Of a DNA stretch of 64,000 nt, positions 3,885 to 15,471 are shown in pieces. The translations under genes were made by a program, and so were the position numbers. The stretch covers positions 35,106 to 99,105 of the forward strand of contig CAJYHL010000061.1 in assembly GCA_913774625.1 (NCBI GenBank), read 5' to 3'. Source of the DNA: an uncultured Acidovorax sp. GTDB lineage: Bacteria; Pseudomonadota; Gammaproteobacteria; Burkholderiales; Burkholderiaceae_C. Numbering within the stretch: the stretch's first letter is position 1; each line of letters opens with the position of its first letter. The notes beneath the pieces were generated by a model. It made no database searches, was not told the DNA's origin, and worked only from the letters and a program-made list of their open reading frames with translations.

Positions 3885-4679
3885 TCAGCCAGCCAAGCCG
3901 GGCGGCACGCGGTAGTGGTAGCCGTACAGGTCGGCGAAGCCCAGGCCGGCATAGAGCCGGCGCGCCGCCGGATTGCCCTCGCGCACCTGCAGATAGGCCA
4001 GGCCCGCGCCACCGTCCTGCGCCCAGCGCAGCAGCGCCCGCACCAGCCGGGTCGCATGGCCCTGGCGGCGGTGGCGCGGTGCGACGACGATGTCGAACAG
4101 GCCCACGGCCTCCTGCTCGCGCACGGCCAGCCCGAAGCCGATGGGCCGGCCCTGCTTGCGGAGCGTGGCGAAGGCCGCCGGCCGGGCGATGGACTGCACC
4201 ATGGCGTGATGCAGGGCCTGGTGGTGCGCCGGCACGCAGTTGGCAGCCGCGAAGCCATCGAGCCAGGCGGGGGAGGGTTGCGGGGCCAGTTCCAGGTCCG
4301 CATCCCACGGGTTCTGCCCCGCCGGGGCCGGCGCCAGCGGGCACACCATGACGTGGGACGGGTCGAAGCGGACATAGCCCGCCGCCTGCAGCTGCAGGTC
4401 GGCTTCGGGCGGTGCCAGCGGCGTCAAGCGGAACACCGCCGGCAGGCCGTGCCGTGCATAGAAGGCTTCCGCCGTGGCCTGCACTTCATGGAAAGGCGCT
4501 TGCGCCGCTGCGGCATTGGCCGAATTCGCACGCTTGGTGAAGCCGCCTGCCAAGCGCAGAACCCAGCCGCCGTGGTGCAGCTCCTGCAAGGCAGGCCAGG
4601 CGTGGAAGGCCGAGGTTTCGAGGGCGAGGATGCGGGCCGGCAGGTCTTCGCCGGCCGCCGGGACAGGGCGCTGGTTCAT
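3885..4679 (-). CDS. GNAT-family N-acetyltransferase
   Basis: MNQRPVPAAGEDLPARILALETSAF...FDIVVAPRHRRQGHATRLVRALLRWA...YLQVREGNPAARRLYAGLGF acetyl-CoA-binding motif; start trimmed from the 422-aa track ORF. Confidence 0.88.
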   Translation of the reverse strand: MNQRPVPAAGEDLPARILALETSAFHAWPALQELHHGGWVLRLAGGFTKRANSANAAAAQAPFHEVQATAEAFYARHGLPAVFRLTPLAPPEADLQLQAAGYVRFDPSHVMVCPLAPAPAGQNPWDADLELAPQPSPAWLDGFAAANCVPAHHQALHHAMVQSIARPAAFATLRKQGRPIGFGLAVREQEAVGLFDIVVAPRHRRQGHATRLVRALLRWAQDGGAGLAYLQVREGNPAARRLYAGLGFADLYGYHYRVPPGLAG

Positions 4680-4809: not shown

Positions 4810-5553
4810 ATGGCGCAGCGACCCGATCGCACCCCCCTGACCGGTTCCACGCTCGTCCGCCTCCTGGCGGGGCTCATCGACCCGCAACAGCGGGTGCGCG
4901 ATTCGCGGATGTCCTTCGCCGACGCCTTGAACCAATGGACGGGCTGGACCGAATCCCTGGCCCTGTCCCAGGCGCTCGAACGCCCGCTGCCGGCGGGCCC
5001 GGCTGCGCCGTCGGCCGACCGGGCTGCACGGGCCGATCGCCATGCCGCCGAGTCGGCCGAATGCCGGCGCGTGCGGGCGCTGCTGGCCCAGTCCATCGCG
5101 CGCGAGGTGTCGGACGCCGGCCGCGGCCCGCTGGACGAAGGCATGGGCTTCACGCCCTTCCGCCAGTGCCATCAGGCGCGCCAGCAGGCGATGGAAGTCT
5201 CCATCGGCCCCTTGCGCGAACGCGTGCGCGCCGCGCTGGCCGAGCACCAGGGCGAGATGGCCCGGCTGGCCGCGCTGGACGCGGTGATGGCCGAGGTGCT
5301 GGCCGCGCAGGAACGGCGGCTGCTGGCCACCGTGCCCGCGCTGCTGGCCCGGCATTTCGAGCGGCTCTGCGGCAGTGGCGCCGAGGCCGAGGCTTGCGGC
5401 GATGCGCAGAGCCTGGACGCGGACGCCCGGCGCGAGCTGTTCCGGCTCGACCAGCAGGCCGTGCTGCTGGCCGAACTGGAGCTGCGCCTGCAACCCGTGC
5501 TGGGGCTGCTGGCCGCCCTGCAACCCCCATCCTCCCCAGAAGGTGGACCATGA
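4810..5553 (+). CDS. DUF3348 family protein
   Basis: MAQRPDRTPLTGSTLVRLLAGLIDP...SFADALNQWTGWTESLALSQAL recalled as DUF3348; first gene of a same-strand cluster. Confidence 0.82.
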   Translation: MAQRPDRTPLTGSTLVRLLAGLIDPQQRVRDSRMSFADALNQWTGWTESLALSQALERPLPAGPAAPSADRAARADRHAAESAECRRVRALLAQSIAREVSDAGRGPLDEGMGFTPFRQCHQARQQAMEVSIGPLRERVRAALAEHQGEMARLAALDAVMAEVLAAQERRLLATVPALLARHFERLCGSGAEAEACGDAQSLDADARRELFRLDQQAVLLAELELRLQPVLGLLAALQPPSSPEGGP

Positions 5554-8540
5554 AGAACAACGAACGTGTACATCCCTCCCGCGCTGGCTCCGGCTCCGGC
5601 ATCGGCTTCGCCGCGGCCTTCTGCGCCGGCCTGATCGTCATCGGCTGGGTGGCCGCCGGCTACGGCGTGACCCACCCGCTGGCGCTGGGCATCACGCTGC
5701 TGATCGCGGCCTTCTATGTGCTGGGCGCGCGCGAGCTGCACGGCTACCGCCAGGCCTCGGGCGCGCTGGCCGCGGCCCTGCAGGTGCCGCCCGCCGAGGG
5801 CAGTGGCCCCGAGGCGCTGGACGGCTGGCTGGCCCCGCTGCCCGCCGCCCTGCGCACCGCCGTGCGCCAGCGCATCGACGGCTTGCGCGCCGGCCTGCCC
5901 GCGCCCGTGATGGCGCCGTATCTCACCGGCCTGCTGGTGCTGCTGGGCATGGTGGGCACCTTCCTGGGCATGGTCGTCACCCTGCAGGGCACGGGCGCCG
6001 CGCTGGCGGGCGCCGACGGGCTGGCCGCCATCCGCGATGCGCTGTCGGCACCCGTGCGCGGCCTGGGCCTGGCCTTCGGCACCTCGGTGGCCGGCGTGGC
6101 CGCTTCGGCCATGCTGGGCCTGATGGGCGCGCTGGCGCGGCGCGAGCGCCTGGCCGCAGCCCAGCAGCTGGATACACTGCTGCCCGCCGCGCTGCGCCCT
6201 TTCACGCCCCAGCACCAGCGCGACGCCGCCTGGCGCCTGCAGGAGCAGCAGGCCGGCCTGCTGCCCGCGCTGGTGGACCGCATCGCCGATGCCATGGCCG
6301 CCATGGAGCGCAGCCAGGCCGCGACGGCCGAGCGCCTGCAGGCCGATCAGGCGCGCTTCTACCGCGAGACCGAGGCCGCCTACACGGGTCTCGCCGCTGC
6401 CGTGGAGCGCACGCTGTCGGCCAGCACAGCCGAAAGCGCACGCCTGGCCGGTGCCGCGCTGCAGCCTGCCATCGAAGCCGCGCTGGCCGGCCTGGGCCGC
6501 GAAAGCGCCGCCCTGCAGGCCGCACTGGCAAGCCAGGTGCGCAGCCAGCTGGACGGCATGGCCGGCCAGTTCGGCACTGCCACCGCCGCCATCACCACCC
6601 AATGGACCGAAGCCCTGGCCGAACACCAGCGCACCGCCGAGGCCACCGCCCAGGCGCTGAACCGCACGCTGGACGGCTTCGCCGAGCGCTTCGAGCAGCG
6701 CAGCGCCACCCTGGCCGACAGCCTGGGTGAGCGGCTGGCGCGCCAGTCCGAAGCGCTGGCCGCACGCTGGGACGAAGCCCTGGCCCGCCAGGCCGGCCAC
6801 AGCGCCCAGCTGGCCGAACGCCACGAAGCCGCCCTGGATGCCGCCGCCCGCGAGTGGGCCCGCCATGCCGAGGCCCTGCATGCCACCGTCGAGGGCAGCC
6901 ACGCCCGCCTGCAGGCCGACGCCGCCGCGCAGGACGCCGCCCGCCAGGCTGCCTGGAATGACGCGCTGCAGACCCTGGCCGCATCGCTGCACAAGGAATG
7001 GCAGACGGCCCAGGCCGGCGCCACCGCCCAATGGAATGCCCTGGGCGAAACGCTCTCTGCCACCGCCGAAGGGATCAGCCAGCGCAGTGCCGAACAGGCC
7101 GCGCAGCTGCTGGCGCAGATCGACCAGCGCGCCGCGCAGGACGAAGCCCGGCAGACGGCCTGGACGCAATCGCTGCAGGCCGTGGCCGAAACCCTGCGCG
7201 CCGAATGGCAGGCCGCCCAGGCCCAGTCCACGGGCCAGTGGCAGCAACTGGGCGAGGTGCTGGCCGCCACGGCCGACGGCATCGGCCAGCGCAGTGCCGA
7301 GCAGGCCACGCAGCTGCTGGCGCAGATCGACCGGCGCGCCGCGCAGGACGAAGCCCGCCAGGCGGCCTGGACGCAGTCGCTGCAGGCCGTGGCCGAAACG
7401 CTGCGCGCCGAATGGCAGGCCGCCCAGGCCCAGTCCACGGGCCAGTGGCAGCAGCTGGGCGAGGTGCTGGCCGCCACGGCCGACGGCATCGGCCAGCGCA
7501 GCGCCGAGCAGGCCACGCAGCTGCTGGCGCAGATCGACCGGCGCGCTGCGCAGGACGAGGCCCGGCAGAACGCCTGGACGCAGTCGCTGGAAGCCGTCGC
7601 GCAGACGCTGCGCGCCGAATGGCAGGCCGCGCAGGTCCAGTCCACCGCCCAGTGGCAGCAGCTGGGCCAGGAACTGGCCCGCACGGCCGAGGCCGTGACC
7701 GCCCGCGCGGCCGAGCAGGCAATGCAGTCGCTGGCGCAGATCGACCAGCGCGCCGCGCAGGACGAAGCCCGCCAGGCCGCCTGGGCGAAGTCGCTGGAAG
7801 CGCTGTCCGCCACGCTGCAGAGCGGCTGGGAGCAGGCCGGCGCCCGCACGGGCCAGCGCTGGGACGCGGCCAGCGAGGCCCTGGCCCGCAGCGCCGGCCA
7901 GATCACCGAGGCGCTGGACGCGCATGCCCGGAACACGCTGGGCGAAATCGGCACCCTGGTGCAGGCCGCGTCCGAGGCGCCCCGCGCGGCGGCCGAGGTG
8001 ATCGGCGAGCTGCGCCAGAAGCTCTCGGACAGCATGGCCCGCGACAACGCCATGCTGGAAGAGCGCAGCCGCATCCTGGAGACGCTCTCCACGCTGCTGG
8101 ACGCCGTCAACCACGCATCGGCCCAGCAGCGCGGCGCCATCGACACGCTGGTGGCCGGCACGGCCGAACTCATGGAGCGCGCTGGCGGCCGCTTCGAGGG
8201 CACGGTGCAGGCCCAGGCCGAGCGCATGGACGCGGTGGCCGCGCAGCTGACCGGCAGCGCGGTGGAGGTCGCCAGCCTGGGCGAGGCCTTCGGCGCGGCG
8301 GTGCAGCACTTCGGCCATGCCAACGAGCAACTGGTGGCGCAGCTGCAGCGCATCGAGTCGGCGCTTGCCAAATCGCTGGCGCGCAGCGACGAGCAGCTGG
8401 ACTACTACGTCGCCCAGGCGCGCGAGGTGATCGAGCTGAGCGTGGGCGCCCAGAAACAGGTGGTGGACGGGCTGCAGCAGGTGGCAGCCGCACAGGCCGG
8501 CAAGCCGGCCCCGGCTGCTGCCGAGGCGGCGGGAGCCTGA
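5550..8540 (+). CDS. DUF802 family protein: MotA/TolQ/ExbB-like membrane domain plus long coiled-coil tail
   Basis: ATGA overlap with DUF3348; TM pairs and GLLVLLGMVGTFLGMVVTLQGTG...IRDALSAPVRGLGLAFGTSVAGVAASAMLGL (MotA/ExbB-like); ~700-aa Ala/Gln/Glu-rich tail. Confidence 0.88.
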   Translation: MKNNERVHPSRAGSGSGIGFAAAFCAGLIVIGWVAAGYGVTHPLALGITLLIAAFYVLGARELHGYRQASGALAAALQVPPAEGSGPEALDGWLAPLPAALRTAVRQRIDGLRAGLPAPVMAPYLTGLLVLLGMVGTFLGMVVTLQGTGAALAGADGLAAIRDALSAPVRGLGLAFGTSVAGVAASAMLGLMGALARRERLAAAQQLDTLLPAALRPFTPQHQRDAAWRLQEQQAGLLPALVDRIADAMAAMERSQAATAERLQADQARFYRETEAAYTGLAAAVERTLSASTAESARLAGAALQPAIEAALAGLGRESAALQAALASQVRSQLDGMAGQFGTATAAITTQWTEALAEHQRTAEATAQALNRTLDGFAERFEQRSATLADSLGERLARQSEALAARWDEALARQAGHSAQLAERHEAALDAAAREWARHAEALHATVEGSHARLQADAAAQDAARQAAWNDALQTLAASLHKEWQTAQAGATAQWNALGETLSATAEGISQRSAEQAAQLLAQIDQRAAQDEARQTAWTQSLQAVAETLRAEWQAAQAQSTGQWQQLGEVLAATADGIGQRSAEQATQLLAQIDRRAAQDEARQAAWTQSLQAVAETLRAEWQAAQAQSTGQWQQLGEVLAATADGIGQRSAEQATQLLAQIDRRAAQDEARQNAWTQSLEAVAQTLRAEWQAAQVQSTAQWQQLGQELARTAEAVTARAAEQAMQSLAQIDQRAAQDEARQAAWAKSLEALSATLQSGWEQAGARTGQRWDAASEALARSAGQITEALDAHARNTLGEIGTLVQAASEAPRAAAEVIGELRQKLSDSMARDNAMLEERSRILETLSTLLDAVNHASAQQRGAIDTLVAGTAELMERAGGRFEGTVQAQAERMDAVAAQLTGSAVEVASLGEAFGAAVQHFGHANEQLVAQLQRIESALAKSLARSDEQLDYYVAQAREVIELSVGAQKQVVDGLQQVAAAQAGKPAPAAAEAAGA
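7080..7907 (+). repeat. Four in-frame tandem copies of a 207-bp (69-aa) coiled-coil unit
   Basis: Units start at 7080, 7287, 7494, 7701; QRSAEQATQLLAQIDRRAAQDEARQxAWTQSLQAVAETLRAEWQAAQAQSTGQWQQLGEVLAATADGIG; first three nearly identical; a degenerate unit precedes. Confidence 0.95.
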
Positions 8541-8544
8541 CGCC

Positions 8545-9213
8545 ATGCCGGGCCATGAAGAACTGGAAGGCGCGGGCGGCGCGGGGCTGGATGCCGACGT
8601 GCCCGTGTGGGCGGTCTTCGGCGACCTGATGGCCGGCGCGCTGGGCGCGTTCGCGCTGATCCTGGTGGCCGCGCTGGGCATGCAGATGGACCTGAGCGAA
8701 CGCCTGAAGACCGAGCAGCGCCAGCGCGAGGCGCAGACCCAGCGCCTGCAGACGCTGGAGCAGGCCCTGGCCGGGCCGCTGGCGGGCGGGCGCGTCACGC
8801 TGGTGGACGGGCGCATCGGCATCAGCGGCAGCGTGCTGTTCGCGCTCAATTCCAACGAGCTGCAGCCCGAGGGGCGGCAGTTGCTCAGCAGCCTGTCGGG
8901 CCCGCTCGCCAGCTACCTGCGCCAGCGCGGCGAGATCCTGATGGTGAGCGGCTTCACCGACGACCAGCCGCTCAGGGACGGCAACCGCTTCGCCGACAAC
9001 TGGGAGCTGTCGGCCCAGCGTGCCCTCACGGTGACGCGCACGCTGATCGAAGCCGGCGTGCCCGCATCCAGCGTGTTCGCCGCGGCCTTCGGCGCAGAGC
9101 AGGCGGTGGCTTCCAACGCCGACGCCGCCGGCCGCGCCCGCAACCGCCGCGTGGAGATGGCGCCCATGCCCCGGCCGGCGCGCAGCGATGCGCAGGCGCA
9201 GACCGCGCGCTGA
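8545..9213 (+). CDS. MotB/OmpA-like protein (one N-terminal TM with Asp, C-terminal OmpA domain)
   Basis: VWAVFGDLMAGALGAFALILVAALGMQ TM with Asp27; OmpA signature GFTDDQPL...NWELSAQRALTVTRTLIEAGV...ARNRRVEM. Confidence 0.9.
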   Translation: MPGHEELEGAGGAGLDADVPVWAVFGDLMAGALGAFALILVAALGMQMDLSERLKTEQRQREAQTQRLQTLEQALAGPLAGGRVTLVDGRIGISGSVLFALNSNELQPEGRQLLSSLSGPLASYLRQRGEILMVSGFTDDQPLRDGNRFADNWELSAQRALTVTRTLIEAGVPASSVFAAAFGAEQAVASNADAAGRARNRRVEMAPMPRPARSDAQAQTAR

Positions 9214-9228
9214 ACGCAGGCCGCTGCC

Positions 9229-10068
9229 ATGCAAGAGCTTTCCTCCCAGGACTGCGCCGCGCCCGACGATTGGGCCGCGCAGCTGGCCGTCTGGCACGCC
9301 CAGGGCGGCCACCGGCTGGAACCCGTGCGCTTCGCCCTGGTCGAGGCGCTGGCACGGCGCGCCGGCAGCCACCAGGGCGCGGTGCGGCAGCTGCTGGACG
9401 CCCGGCTGCGCACGCTGGCGGCCGATCTGCGCGTGCGGCTGGCCGGGCGCACGGGTGGCTTGGCCGCGGAGCCGGCGGCCGTTGCGCCCGCCGCCACAGC
9501 CGAGCCAGCCGCGCGCGGCCGTCTGGGCCAACTGGCCGACCTGCTGGCAGGCGTGGCCGAGCCTGCGGCAGCGAGGGGCGCAGTGGATACGGCGGCCCCG
9601 GGCAGCCCCGTGGCGCCAGCAGCCCCCGCCCACGCCCGCGGCGGAAGGCACTCATCGTCCCGCCAGCGCATGCCGGCCGCCGCGCCCGAGGTGCCGGCCA
9701 TGGCGGTGCTGGAGGCCGCGCCCCAGGTGCTGCCCAGCGCGGCGCGCTCGGGGCCGGCCGCGCCTGCGGCGCTGGAGCTGGCAGCCGTGCGGCGCTTTCG
9801 CGGCACCTGGTCGCGCCTGTCGGCCGAAGAGCGGCTGCGCCAGACCCTGGCCCAGGTGCCGCCCCAGGCCGGGCCGCTGAACGCGCTGCATCTGCTGCAC
9901 CGCGCCCTGGTGGGCATGCACGGCATTTCACCCGACTACCTGCAGCACTTCGTCGCCCAGGTGGACGCGCTGCTGTGGCTGGAACAGGTGCAGGCCGCCT
10001 CGCTGCCCGTGGCCCGCCCGCGTGCCGCCGGCGCCACGCGCCGCAAGCCGGTGGTGCGCAAGCGGTAG
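9229..10068 (+). CDS. DUF2894 family protein
   Basis: DDWAAQLAVWHAQGGHRLEPVRFALVEALARRA...LHLLHRALVGMHGISPDYLQHFVAQVDALLWLEQ recalled as DUF2894; 15 bp after the OmpA gene. Confidence 0.82.
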   Translation: MQELSSQDCAAPDDWAAQLAVWHAQGGHRLEPVRFALVEALARRAGSHQGAVRQLLDARLRTLAADLRVRLAGRTGGLAAEPAAVAPAATAEPAARGRLGQLADLLAGVAEPAAARGAVDTAAPGSPVAPAAPAHARGGRHSSSRQRMPAAAPEVPAMAVLEAAPQVLPSAARSGPAAPAALELAAVRRFRGTWSRLSAEERLRQTLAQVPPQAGPLNALHLLHRALVGMHGISPDYLQHFVAQVDALLWLEQVQAASLPVARPRAAGATRRKPVVRKR

Positions 10069-10624: not shown

Positions 10625-11086
10625 TCAGGGCTTGGCCGGGGCGGGCGGCTGGCCGCCGTTCTCCGGCTTCGGCTGCGCCGGCTTGGGCTTCTGCTTCTGT
10701 TCCTTCTTCGCCGCGTCGCGCTTCAGGCGCTCCAGTTCCGCCTGGGCCTTCTTGAGCTCGGCGCGGGCCTTGGCGCCATCGCCCTTGCCGTCCTTTTCGG
10801 CCGCATCCACGGCCTTCTGCGCCTGCGTCACCTTCTTTTCCTGGGTGCTGATGCGGCGTTCGCTCATCACGCGCTCGCCGGGTTCGCTGCAGCTCACGGC
10901 GAGTTCGCCCCGGGCGCGCTCCAGCGACACCGCATGGGCGTCCTTGCCGGCGGACTTGGCTTTCTCCATCTCGCTGGTGAGGCCCGCGCGCTTCTGGGCA
11001 CAGTCGTCGGGGTCGGCCGGCTGGGCCAGGGACAGGGCGGAAGCCGACAGGGCGGCGATGGCGATCAGGGCGGGGGCGAATTTCAT
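10625..11086 (-). CDS. DUF1090 (YqjC-like) periplasmic protein
   Basis: MKFAPALIAIAALSASALSLAQPADPDDCAQKRAGLTSEMEKAKSAG...RISTQEKKVTQAQ. Confidence 0.85.
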   Translation of the reverse strand: MKFAPALIAIAALSASALSLAQPADPDDCAQKRAGLTSEMEKAKSAGKDAHAVSLERARGELAVSCSEPGERVMSERRISTQEKKVTQAQKAVDAAEKDGKGDGAKARAELKKAQAELERLKRDAAKKEQKQKPKPAQPKPENGGQPPAPAKP

Positions 11087-11333
11087 GGAAGGCCTCGTGC
11101 AGGAAGATGCGGGCGAGCTTGTCACGCAGCCTGCGGGCCGCCCGTCGGACGACGGCGCATCGGCGCGCAAGGCGCTGCCATGCGGGCGCGGGCCGCCGCC
11201 TGCCTGCGCGGGCGAAGGGACTTCGCTGCGCGCATCGGGCTTCCACATTAGACTTTCGGGCTGCCGGCGGGCTTCGATGCGCGCCGCTCCCGTCCTGCCC
11301 GGCTTCCGCCCTCCGTCCCTCCCTTCCGCATCC

Positions 11334-13445
11334 ATGTCCGTTTCCAGCGCATCGCCCACCGACTTTCCCAAGGCCCCCGGCCGGGTGAGCGCGAAGCTGC
11401 GGGCGCACGGCTGGAGCGGCCATCCGCTGGGCCCGGTGGCGCAATGGCCGCTGGCGCTGAGGCTGGCGGTGGAGTCGATGCTGGCCACGCACATCCCGAC
11501 CTGCCTGATGTGGGGCGAGGAGCATTTCTTTTTCTACAACGATGCCTACGGCATCATCCTGGGCGAGAAGCCCGAGGCGCTGGGCCTGCCGGCGCGGCAG
11601 GTGTGGTCCGAGGTCTGGGCCGACATCGAGCCGCTGGTGCAGCGCACCTATGGCGGCGAAGCCATCTTCATCGAGGACTATCCGCTCGACATCCACCGCC
11701 ACGGCGTGCCCGAGCGGGCCTATTTCACCTTCTGCTACAGCCCGCTGCGCGACGAGCACGGCGAGATACGCGGCCTGGTGGACACGGTGATGGAGACCAC
11801 CGGCAAGGTGCTGGCCGAAACCCGCCTGCGCGAGCAGAACGCGTCGCTGGAGAACCTGGTGGCGGCCCGCACCGCCGACCGCAACCGGCTCTGGCAGAAC
11901 TCCGACGCGCTGCTGTTCGTGGCACGCTTCGACGGCGTGATCGTCACCGTCAACCCAGGCTGGACCGCGGCCCTGGGCTGGCCCGAGGAGGAGACCGTGG
12001 GGCGCCATGTCCTCTCCTTCGCCCACCCCGACGAGACCGGCACCGTGCTGGGCGAGCTGCAGCGCCTGCGCGATGGCGCGGAGCGCAGCGAATCCACGCT
12101 GCAATTTCGCCACCGCGACGGCTCCGAGCGCTGCATCGTCTGGACCGCCGTGCCCGCCGACGGCTTCCTGCAGTGCGTGGGCCGCGACATCACCCAGGAG
12201 CGTGCCCAGGCCCAGGCCCTGCACGACGCGGAAGAGCGCCTGCGCCAGAGCCAGAAGATGGAGGCCGTGGGCCAGCTCACGGGCGGCATCGCGCACGACC
12301 TGAACAACATGCTGCAGGGCATCGTCCTGCCGCTGCAGCTCATCCGCCAGCGCGTGGCCCAGCAGCGCTACGGCGACGTGAGCCGCTATGTGGACGCGGG
12401 GCTGGCCTCGGCCCGCCGCGCCGGCTCGCTCACGCAGCGGCTGCTGGCCTTCTCGCGCCGCCAGCCGCTGGACTCGCGCCCGGTAGACCTGGGCGAATCG
12501 CTGCGGGGCCTGGAAACGGTGCTGCGCACCACCTGCGGCGAGAACATCGCCCTGGCCATGGAACTGCAGGAAGACTGCTGGCGCGCGCTGACCGATGCCC
12601 ACCAGTTCGAGAGCGCCATCCTGAACCTGGCCATCAACGCCCGGGACGCCATGCCCCAGGGCGGGGAACTGCGCATCAGCGTGCGCAACTGCTCGCTGGG
12701 CGAGCAGCAGGCCCGCCAGCATCAGGGGCTGGAGCCCGGCGACTACGTGTGCGTGACGGTGGCCGACACCGGCACCGGCATGCCGCGCGACGTGATCGAG
12801 CGCGCCTTCGACCCCTTCTTCACCACCAAGCCCATAGGCCAGGGCACGGGCCTGGGCCTGTCGATGATCTACGGCTACATGCGCCAGACGGGCGGCCTGG
12901 CCGTGATCGACAGCACCGAAGGCGAGGGCACGCGCGTGCATCTCTACTTCGTGCGCACCGAGGCGGACAAGGCCGAGGAGCGGCACGAGGTGCTGGACAG
13001 CCAGCCCGCCGACAAGCGCCCCGATTCCGTGCTGGTGGTCGAAGACGACGACACGGTGCGCCTGCTGGCGGTGGAGCTGCTGCGCGACATGGGTTTCCAG
13101 GTCATGCAGGCGGCCAGCGGCACCGAGGCCATGGCCCTGCTGTCGGGCGCGCTGCATTTCGACCTGCTGCTGTCCGACGTGGGCCTGCCGGGCCCGAACG
13201 GCCGCCAGGTGGCCGACTTCTCCCGCGAGAAGCTGCCCGGCATCCGCGTGATCCTGATGACCGGCTATGCCGAGCAGGCCGCCATGAACCCGAACTTCCT
13301 GGGCCCGCAGATGGAGTTGCTGGTCAAGCCCTTCGACGCGCAGGCGCTGGTGTCCAAGGTGCGCGCCGTCATGGGCATGGAGCCGGCCCCCGCTGCCGAC
13401 GAGCGCAGCGAAGCCGGGAGCGGCCAGGCGTATTCGGGCTTCTGA
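11334..13445 (+). CDS. Hybrid sensor histidine kinase / response regulator with PAS domains
   Basis: PAS regions; H-box [19 protein letters not shown] boxes [32 protein letters not shown]-terminal receiver [14 protein letters not shown]. Confidence 0.92.
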
Positions 13446-13732
13446 AACCTTCGGGAGGTGGCGGGGCAAAGCCTCTGCGCATCTGCGGGGTTTCGGCCTG
13501 CAGCCCTTTGTGCAGAAACGCATGCAGCTATGATTAGCGTAGCAGCGTGTTGGGCGTAAGAGGCCGCCGGCACGGCGAAATAACCGCAGCCCATAACCAC
13601 CCAACGATTCGGTCGTTGCCCTGGAACCCGGCCAGCCCGTACATTTCACCCCCTTCACGCATCCGTACTGCGCCGCTGCCGGCAGGCCCTGGCTTGCCGG
13701 GCGGCGCTTTGTTTTTCCTTTCGCGGGCATTC

Positions 13733-14800
13733 ATGATCGACTTACGGGGTATCACCCAGATTTACCAGGGCCCACAAGGCCCGGTGGAGGCGCTGCGCGG
13801 CATCGACCTGCACATCGAGCCGGGCGAGGTCTTCGGCATCATCGGCAAGAGCGGAGCGGGCAAGAGCTCGCTGGTGCGCGTCATCAACCTGCTCAACCGG
13901 CCCACCACGGGCCAGGTCATCGTGGCCGGGCACGACCTGGCGCAGATGGACGAGGCCCGGCTGCGCGAGGCGCGGCGGGGCATCGGCATGGTGTTCCAGC
14001 ACTTCAACCTGCTGTCGTCGCGCACGGTGTTCGGCAACGCCGCGCTGCCGCTGGAGCTGGCCGGCATGGACCGCGCCGCCATCCGAGAGCGCGTGAACCC
14101 GCTGCTGGAGCTGGTGGGCCTGTCGCATCTGGCGGACCGCTACCCCGCGCAGATCAGCGGCGGGCAGAAGCAGCGCGTGGGCATCGCCCGGGCGCTGGCC
14201 AGCCGGCCGCAGGTGCTGCTGTCGGACGAGGCCACCTCGGCGCTGGACCCGGAGACCACGCGCTCCATCCTCGCGCTGCTGCGGCAGGTCAACCGCGAGC
14301 TGGGCCTGACGGTGGTGCTCATCACCCACCAGATGCAGGTCATCAAGCAGGTGGCCGACCGCGTGGCCGTGATCGACGCCGGCCGCATCGTGGAGCAGGG
14401 CCCGGTGCTGGAGGTGTTCACCCGCCCGCAGCAGGCCATCACCAAAAGCCTGATCGACGAGATCGTGCCGCAGGAGCTGCCCGCCAGCGTGCTGGACCAT
14501 GTACGCCACCTAGCCTCGCAGCTGCCCGCGCACGAGACGGGCGAGCTGCTGCGCCTTTCGTATTCGGGCGAGCGCGCCTACCAGCCCATCCTGTCGCGCC
14601 TGATCCGCGAGCACGGGCTGGATCTCTCCATCCTGCACGGGCAGATCGACGAGATCCAGAGCCAGACCTTCGGCTCGCTGGCGGTCTATGTGAGCGGCGA
14701 GGGCGCACGCCTGGCGGCGGCGGTGGCGCAGCTGCGCGCCGAGGGCGTGCTGGTCGATGAAGTGAAGGTGGTGTCCGCCGGCGCGGGCATGGAGGGCTGA
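13733..14800 (+). CDS. metN: Methionine ABC transporter ATP-binding protein
   Basis: [13 protein letters not shown]...[24 protein letters not shown]...[17 protein letters not shown]-terminal NIL-like domain. Confidence 0.94.
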
Positions 14801-14805
14801 GGGCG

Positions 14806-15471
14806 ATGTTCGAGAACTTTTCCGAAATGATGGTCGAGCTGTTCGTCACCTCGCTGTGGGAGACGCTCATCATGGTGGGCATCTCCGGCCTTGCGGGCGC
14901 GCTCATCGGCATCCCGCTGGGCGTCTTCCTGCGGCTGACCGACCGGGGCGGCGTGCTGGAGAACGGCGCCGTCAACAAGACCGTGGGCTGGATCGTGAAC
15001 GCCGTGCGCTCGACGCCGTTCATCATCCTGCTGGTGGCGATCATCCCGCTCACGCGCTTCATCACCGGCTCGTCCATCGGCACGGCCGCCGCCGTGGTGC
15101 CGCTCACCATCGCCGCCGCGCCCTTCGTCGCGCGGCTGGTGGAAGCCTCGCTGCGCGAGGTGGACAACGGCCTGATCGAGGCCGCCCAGGCCATGGGGGC
15201 GACCACCTGGCAGATCGTCTGGAAGGTGCTGCTGCCCGAGGCGCTGCCCGGCATCGTGGCGGGCCTGACCATCACCTTCGTCAGCCTCACGGGCTATTCG
15301 GCCATGGCCGGCGCCATCGGCGGCGGCGGCCTGGGCGACCTGGGCATCCGCTATGGCTACCAGCGCTTCCTGCCGGACATCATGCTGGCCGTGGTGGTGG
15401 TGCTGATCTTCTTCGTGCAGGCCGTGCAGAGCCTGGGCGACTGGGCGGTGCGGCGCCTGAGCCATCGCTGA
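14806..15471 (+). CDS. metI: Methionine ABC transporter permease
   Basis: MFENFSEMMVELFVTSLWETLIMVGISG...EAAQAMGATTWQIVWKVLLPEALPGIVAGLTIT. Confidence 0.94.
   Translation: MFENFSEMMVELFVTSLWETLIMVGISGLAGALIGIPLGVFLRLTDRGGVLENGAVNKTVGWIVNAVRSTPFIILLVAIIPLTRFITGSSIGTAAAVVPLTIAAAPFVARLVEASLREVDNGLIEAAQAMGATTWQIVWKVLLPEALPGIVAGLTITFVSLTGYSAMAGAIGGGGLGDLGIRYGYQRFLPDIMLAVVVVLIFFVQAVQSLGDWAVRRLSHR

Follow-up and report, generated by a model that had tools for sequence, protein, structure and literature searches.

Motor activity, peptidoglycan binding and a requirement for the stalk are established for Zorya types I and II (PMC11890865; PDB 8VVN, 8VVI), the only types for which a 5:2 ZorA:ZorB complex with a cytoplasmic rod is known. 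In both, defence is abolished by the ZorB substitution D24N, and they bring with them ZorD, predicted to be a helicase, and the nickase ZorE (PMC11890865). Zorya type III dates from 2021, when it was introduced for 6,401 cases in which genes for DUF3348 and DUF2894 proteins flank the Zorya motor genes (Payne et al. 2021, PMC8565338). The type III system of Stenotrophomonas nitritireducens, cloned in E. coli, reduced plaquing of several phages (PMC8565338). Of the Zorya types, III has been studied least, and we found no published structure or mechanism for it.

We analysed a stretch of 64,000 nucleotides (the window) from an uncultured Acidovorax sp., in which four intact, co-directional frames occupy positions 4810-10068 of the plus strand. 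These encode a DUF3348 protein (4810-5553, 247 aa; Pfam PF11828, 2e-61), a MotA-like DUF802 protein (5550-8540, 996 aa; Pfam DUF802, 1e-15 over two stretches), an OmpA/MotB-like protein (8545-9213, 222 aa; Pfam OmpA, 2e-17) and a DUF2894 protein (9229-10068, 279 aa; Pfam PF11445, 4e-46). The first two genes overlap by 4 bp (ATGA), and gaps of 4 bp and 15 bp separate the second from the third and the third from the fourth. These coordinates and Pfam matches bore out the four same-strand genes, overlap and spacings proposed in a first-pass annotation of this DNA. All four proteins also matched dedicated PADLOC models: ZorA3 with 1012 bits (E 0), ZorB3 at 8e-105, ZorG3 (the DUF3348 protein) at 1e-67 and ZorF3 (the DUF2894 protein) at 1e-56. 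ZorF and ZorG stand for opposite proteins in different sources, DUF3348 being ZorF and DUF2894 ZorG in the 2021 and 2025 papers and the reverse in PADLOC-DB 2.0 (models PDLC00652-00658).

The window operon therefore has a ZorA-like protein with a MotA/ExbB/TolQ block, a ZorB-like protein with a transmembrane Asp and an OmpA domain, and flanking DUF3348 and DUF2894 genes. It shares gene content, domain make-up and all four PADLOC models with type III, the genera reported for that type (Burkholderia, Xanthomonas, Stenotrophomonas, Ralstonia and Paraburkholderia; PMC8565338) match those of the relatives found here, and no feature of the operon excludes membership. We put the probability that 4810-10068 is a complete chromosomal Zorya type III system, predicted to act against phage by homology and by the protection that a homologue confers, at about 0.9. 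The first-pass annotation had described the unit as an undescribed motor without Zorya effectors. Neither description holds: this four-gene set has had the name Zorya type III since 2021, a homologue has been shown to give protection, and PADLOC has dedicated models for all four proteins. Its proposal that the DUF3348 and DUF2894 proteins are dedicated partners in place of ZorC, ZorD and ZorE was right. Assignment to another type found no support: the four proteins matched no ZorC or ZorD model (type I), and their flanks consist of the genes listed below. Nor did any of the four match a ZorE model, and an HNH Pfam family was absent from them and from the scanned flanks (type II).

The arrangement of the four genes is far beyond chance, since 74 of the 80 relatives keep their order and strand (DUF3348-ZorA3-ZorB3-DUF2894) and purifying selection acts on each of the four (dN/dS 0.10-0.39 against a sister species). 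The remaining six loci are cut by contig ends, so that the order is found in 74/74 uncut loci. Of 101 genomes of the family, moreover, 28 carry ZorB3, and precisely these 28 also have DUF3348 and DUF2894, with the genes close together.

Profile comparisons point to a motor of the ZorAB kind. A profile of the MotA/TolQ/ExbB-type motor block of ZorA3 (residues 1-215, 5550-6194) found type I ZorA of 8VVN (8vvn_C) at E 2e-5, covering two conserved transmembrane segments, and profiles built from type III matched the ZorA and ZorB proteins of types I and II (best 3e-9 for the motor and 8e-17 for ZorB). ZorB3 has one transmembrane helix carrying Asp27 (codon 8623-8625, where the first-pass annotation had placed it), followed by an OmpA peptidoglycan-binding domain. 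Asp27 was invariant in 83/83 ZorB3 sequences and aligned with the essential Asp24 of type I ZorB (8VVN). Types I and II share with this operon the ZorAB core, the ion-site Asp in a P-x-W-x-x-F-x-D-L-M context, the Thr/Ser positions (here the conserved ZorA3 residues T137, 5958-5960, and T178 and S179, 6081-6083 and 6084-6086), the OmpA domain and a long cytoplasmic extension of ZorA. However, type I has ZorC and ZorD and type II the ZorE nickase, which this operon does not contain. The matches also included the MotAB/PomAB-type structures 3khn and 8ucs, consistent with a shared family of motor fold and with peptidoglycan binding of the OmpA type. Unlike these stators, the window system has a long stalk and DUF3348 and DUF2894 partners and lacks a flagellar context: its score against the MotB/MotD NCBIfam model was 93 of the 283-bit cut-off, and it has no flagellar neighbours. 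The earlier proposal of an ion-driven motor that resembles ZorAB and whose tail is very long is well supported at the level of sequence. On none of the three points fixed beforehand (motor fold, Asp27 and co-occurrence) did the results go against the motor reading.

What appears to be new lies in the stalk and tip of ZorA3. The stalk (residues 216-792, 6195-7925) separates the motor block from a tip (residues 793-976, 7926-8477) that carries the motif SDEQLDYYVAQAREV, with the consensus form SDEQLxYYVAQAREV in the last ~180 residues across relatives. Motor and tip are strongly conserved and variation is confined to the stalk between them. Among 79 relatives the length of ZorA3 ranges twofold, from 595 to 1155 aa, whereas in types I and II, according to the 2025 structural paper (PMC11890865), the components, ZorA included, are well conserved in size within each type. 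Gain or loss of whole stalk blocks accounts for this range, the two ends staying constant. In the window gene a tandem array of 4.2 copies of a 207-bp (69-aa) unit spans 6923-7801 (86% match, no indels), and the nearest sister species differs from it by exactly one 69-aa block. In 34/80 genes the stalk contained a tandem repeat whose unit was 100 bp or longer and always a multiple of 3 bp. In a control set of type I and II loci, a small sample with several loci overlapping and so suggestive only, one of 19 had a repeat with a period of at least 60 bp.

The blocks keep the register of the helix. Hydrophobic residues in the stalk recur each 3.65-3.66 residues, near a hendecad pattern as opposed to the 3.5 of a heptad. 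Between close relatives (at least 80% identical) every stalk indel of at least 12 aa fell on one of 14 distinct lengths from 22 to 204 aa, among them 29, 51, 58, 69, 87, 102, 116 and 174 aa. At 3.632 residues per turn, each of the 14 comes to a whole number of turns with a deviation no larger than 0.17. When the period was free to vary, not one random set of 14 lengths out of 50,000 fitted as well. This sample consists of the relatives closest to one query, and certain lengths can be composed from others (102 = 2 x 51, 174 = 2 x 87); restriction to pairs sharing no member left eight distinct lengths, which 2/50,000 random sets equalled. The ZorA3 stalk lengthens and shortens between species only in blocks that keep helix register, which looks unreported in the Zorya literature as far as we have checked. 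Candidate homology of the tip to types I and II was not accepted, as the matches were diffuse coiled-coil matches at several places. In Paraburkholderia tropica (locus L077, 6884-10001) ZorA3 is broken within the stalk into two overlapping frames, which may be a real break or an error of repeat assembly.

The partner proteins gave no indication of an enzyme. The AlphaFold2 model of DUF3348 was confident and all-helical (pLDDT 86). That of DUF2894 (pLDDT 70, pTM 0.39) comprised a helical N domain (residues 12-80), a disordered linker, a helical C domain (179-258) and a basic C-terminal tail, the last 25 residues of which carry a net charge of +8 (median +5 over 79 homologues). A PDB structural search with both models returned no match below E 0.5, profile searches gave no convincing fold for either protein (the DUF2894 match to PscE was at E 0.02), and neither matched an enzyme family in Pfam. 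No nuclease or helicase was found within the operon, and type III has no recognisable counterpart of the predicted helicase ZorD or the ZorE nickase of types I and II. The lack of a nuclease or helicase in the operon we count against the defence reading.

The genomic setting also bears on function. Upstream lie NikR, a TonB-dependent receptor, DUF4198 and a divergent GNAT acetyltransferase (3885-4679, minus strand), the last called by inspection of the sequence without a family match. Downstream, cytochrome c and DUF1090 genes, both on the minus strand as previously annotated, leave the unit self-contained and are followed by MetN/MetI (13547-15471). The DUF1090 domain covers only residues 149-255 of its frame (10625-11494), so the true start of that gene is probably well downstream of the start of the longest frame. 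A 697-aa frame (11444-13537, plus strand) has no Pfam match and is found with 65-76% identity in two sister species, beside MetN/MetI. The operon is present in 4/17 congeners, all four carriers having it at one shared place. Comparison with the empty sites of Zorya-less congeners gave no clean insertion boundary. In four of these the GNAT gene directly adjoins MetI/MetN, which indicates that this chromosomal stretch has been rearranged within the genus; in three more the GNAT gene is present and MetNI is absent from the stretch examined.

Beyond the genus, ZorB3 was detected in 94/301 species and 46/126 genera of the family, and in 10/276 genomes spread across the class. A tree of the motor and ZorB follows genera closely, though incompletely (26 changes, where the minimum is 21 and shuffling gives 47). 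Metabolic and regulatory genes of an ordinary kind, from 101 Pfam families, make up the flanks of ~20 relatives; PADLOC matches (four models in all) fell on two of 83 flanking proteins near relatives, one being an RtcR regulator. Given this patchy distribution, shared genus site, genus-following tree and ordinary flanks, the operon is an accessory unit that has long been kept within lineages outside defence islands. Plasmid records with ZorB3 numbered 27, each of them a very large replicon (366 kb to 3.5 Mb) and nearly all from Burkholderiales, where the large replicons that bear it are chromids and megaplasmids. No ZorB3 was found among phage records. Carriage by plasmid or phage was rejected as a sign of mobility.

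Some of these observations we count against defence. The neighbouring genes do not form a defence island, and a vertically kept housekeeping motor of the envelope or cell shape, MotAB- or TolQR-like and blocking phage only incidentally when overexpressed, would give both the genus-following tree and the fixed genus locus. The lack of defence-island neighbours, the Burkholderiales chromids and megaplasmids and the empty phage records agree with such a role. However, two thirds of the species in the family and 13/17 congeners lack the operon, which is hence dispensable, its motor block and ZorB3 are homologous to ZorA and ZorB, and in E. coli a homologue gives protection from several phages (PMC8565338); we consider this explanation unlikely. 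An energiser of outer-membrane transport of the TonB/Tol type, perhaps tied to NikR and the TonB-dependent receptor just upstream, would suit the MotA/TolQ/ExbB-type block, but it is highly improbable given that there is no TonB or ExbD/TolR-like partner, that ZorB3 has an OmpA peptidoglycan-binding domain, and that relatives of other genera have other neighbours, the receptor being local to the genus locus.

For the Zorya type III reading, we infer a mechanism in part from types I and II. By analogy with their stoichiometry, five ZorA3 and two ZorB3 subunits would form an ion-driven motor in the inner membrane, with the ZorB3 OmpA domain gripping peptidoglycan. Phage entry would disturb the envelope, ions would pass Asp27 of ZorB and the ZorA Thr/Ser ring (T137, T178 and S179), and ZorA would turn. 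The five ZorA C-termini would combine into a single long cytoplasmic stalk. Because its length can change by in-register blocks, the most likely role of this stalk is that of a spacer or lever rather than of a fixed ruler. The conserved tip is likely to be where DUF3348 and DUF2894 dock or are activated. Tentatively, type III may be a defence motor whose drive shaft, set between an unchanging motor and an unchanging tip, varies freely in length through duplication or loss of blocks that preserve helix phase. It would transmit to two non-enzymatic helical partners and so stop phage although the system itself has neither a nuclease nor a helicase.

The ZorA3 operon is real and intact, a new copy of a known system. 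To that system it adds in-register variation of stalk length and a conserved tip, both of which look unreported, and the lack of a recognisable effector enzyme. Partners without an enzyme-like fold bring into focus how type III acts on phage, and a series of stalks of natural lengths with constant ends makes possible a direct test of whether the stalk is a rigid shaft, a lever or a fixed-length ruler.
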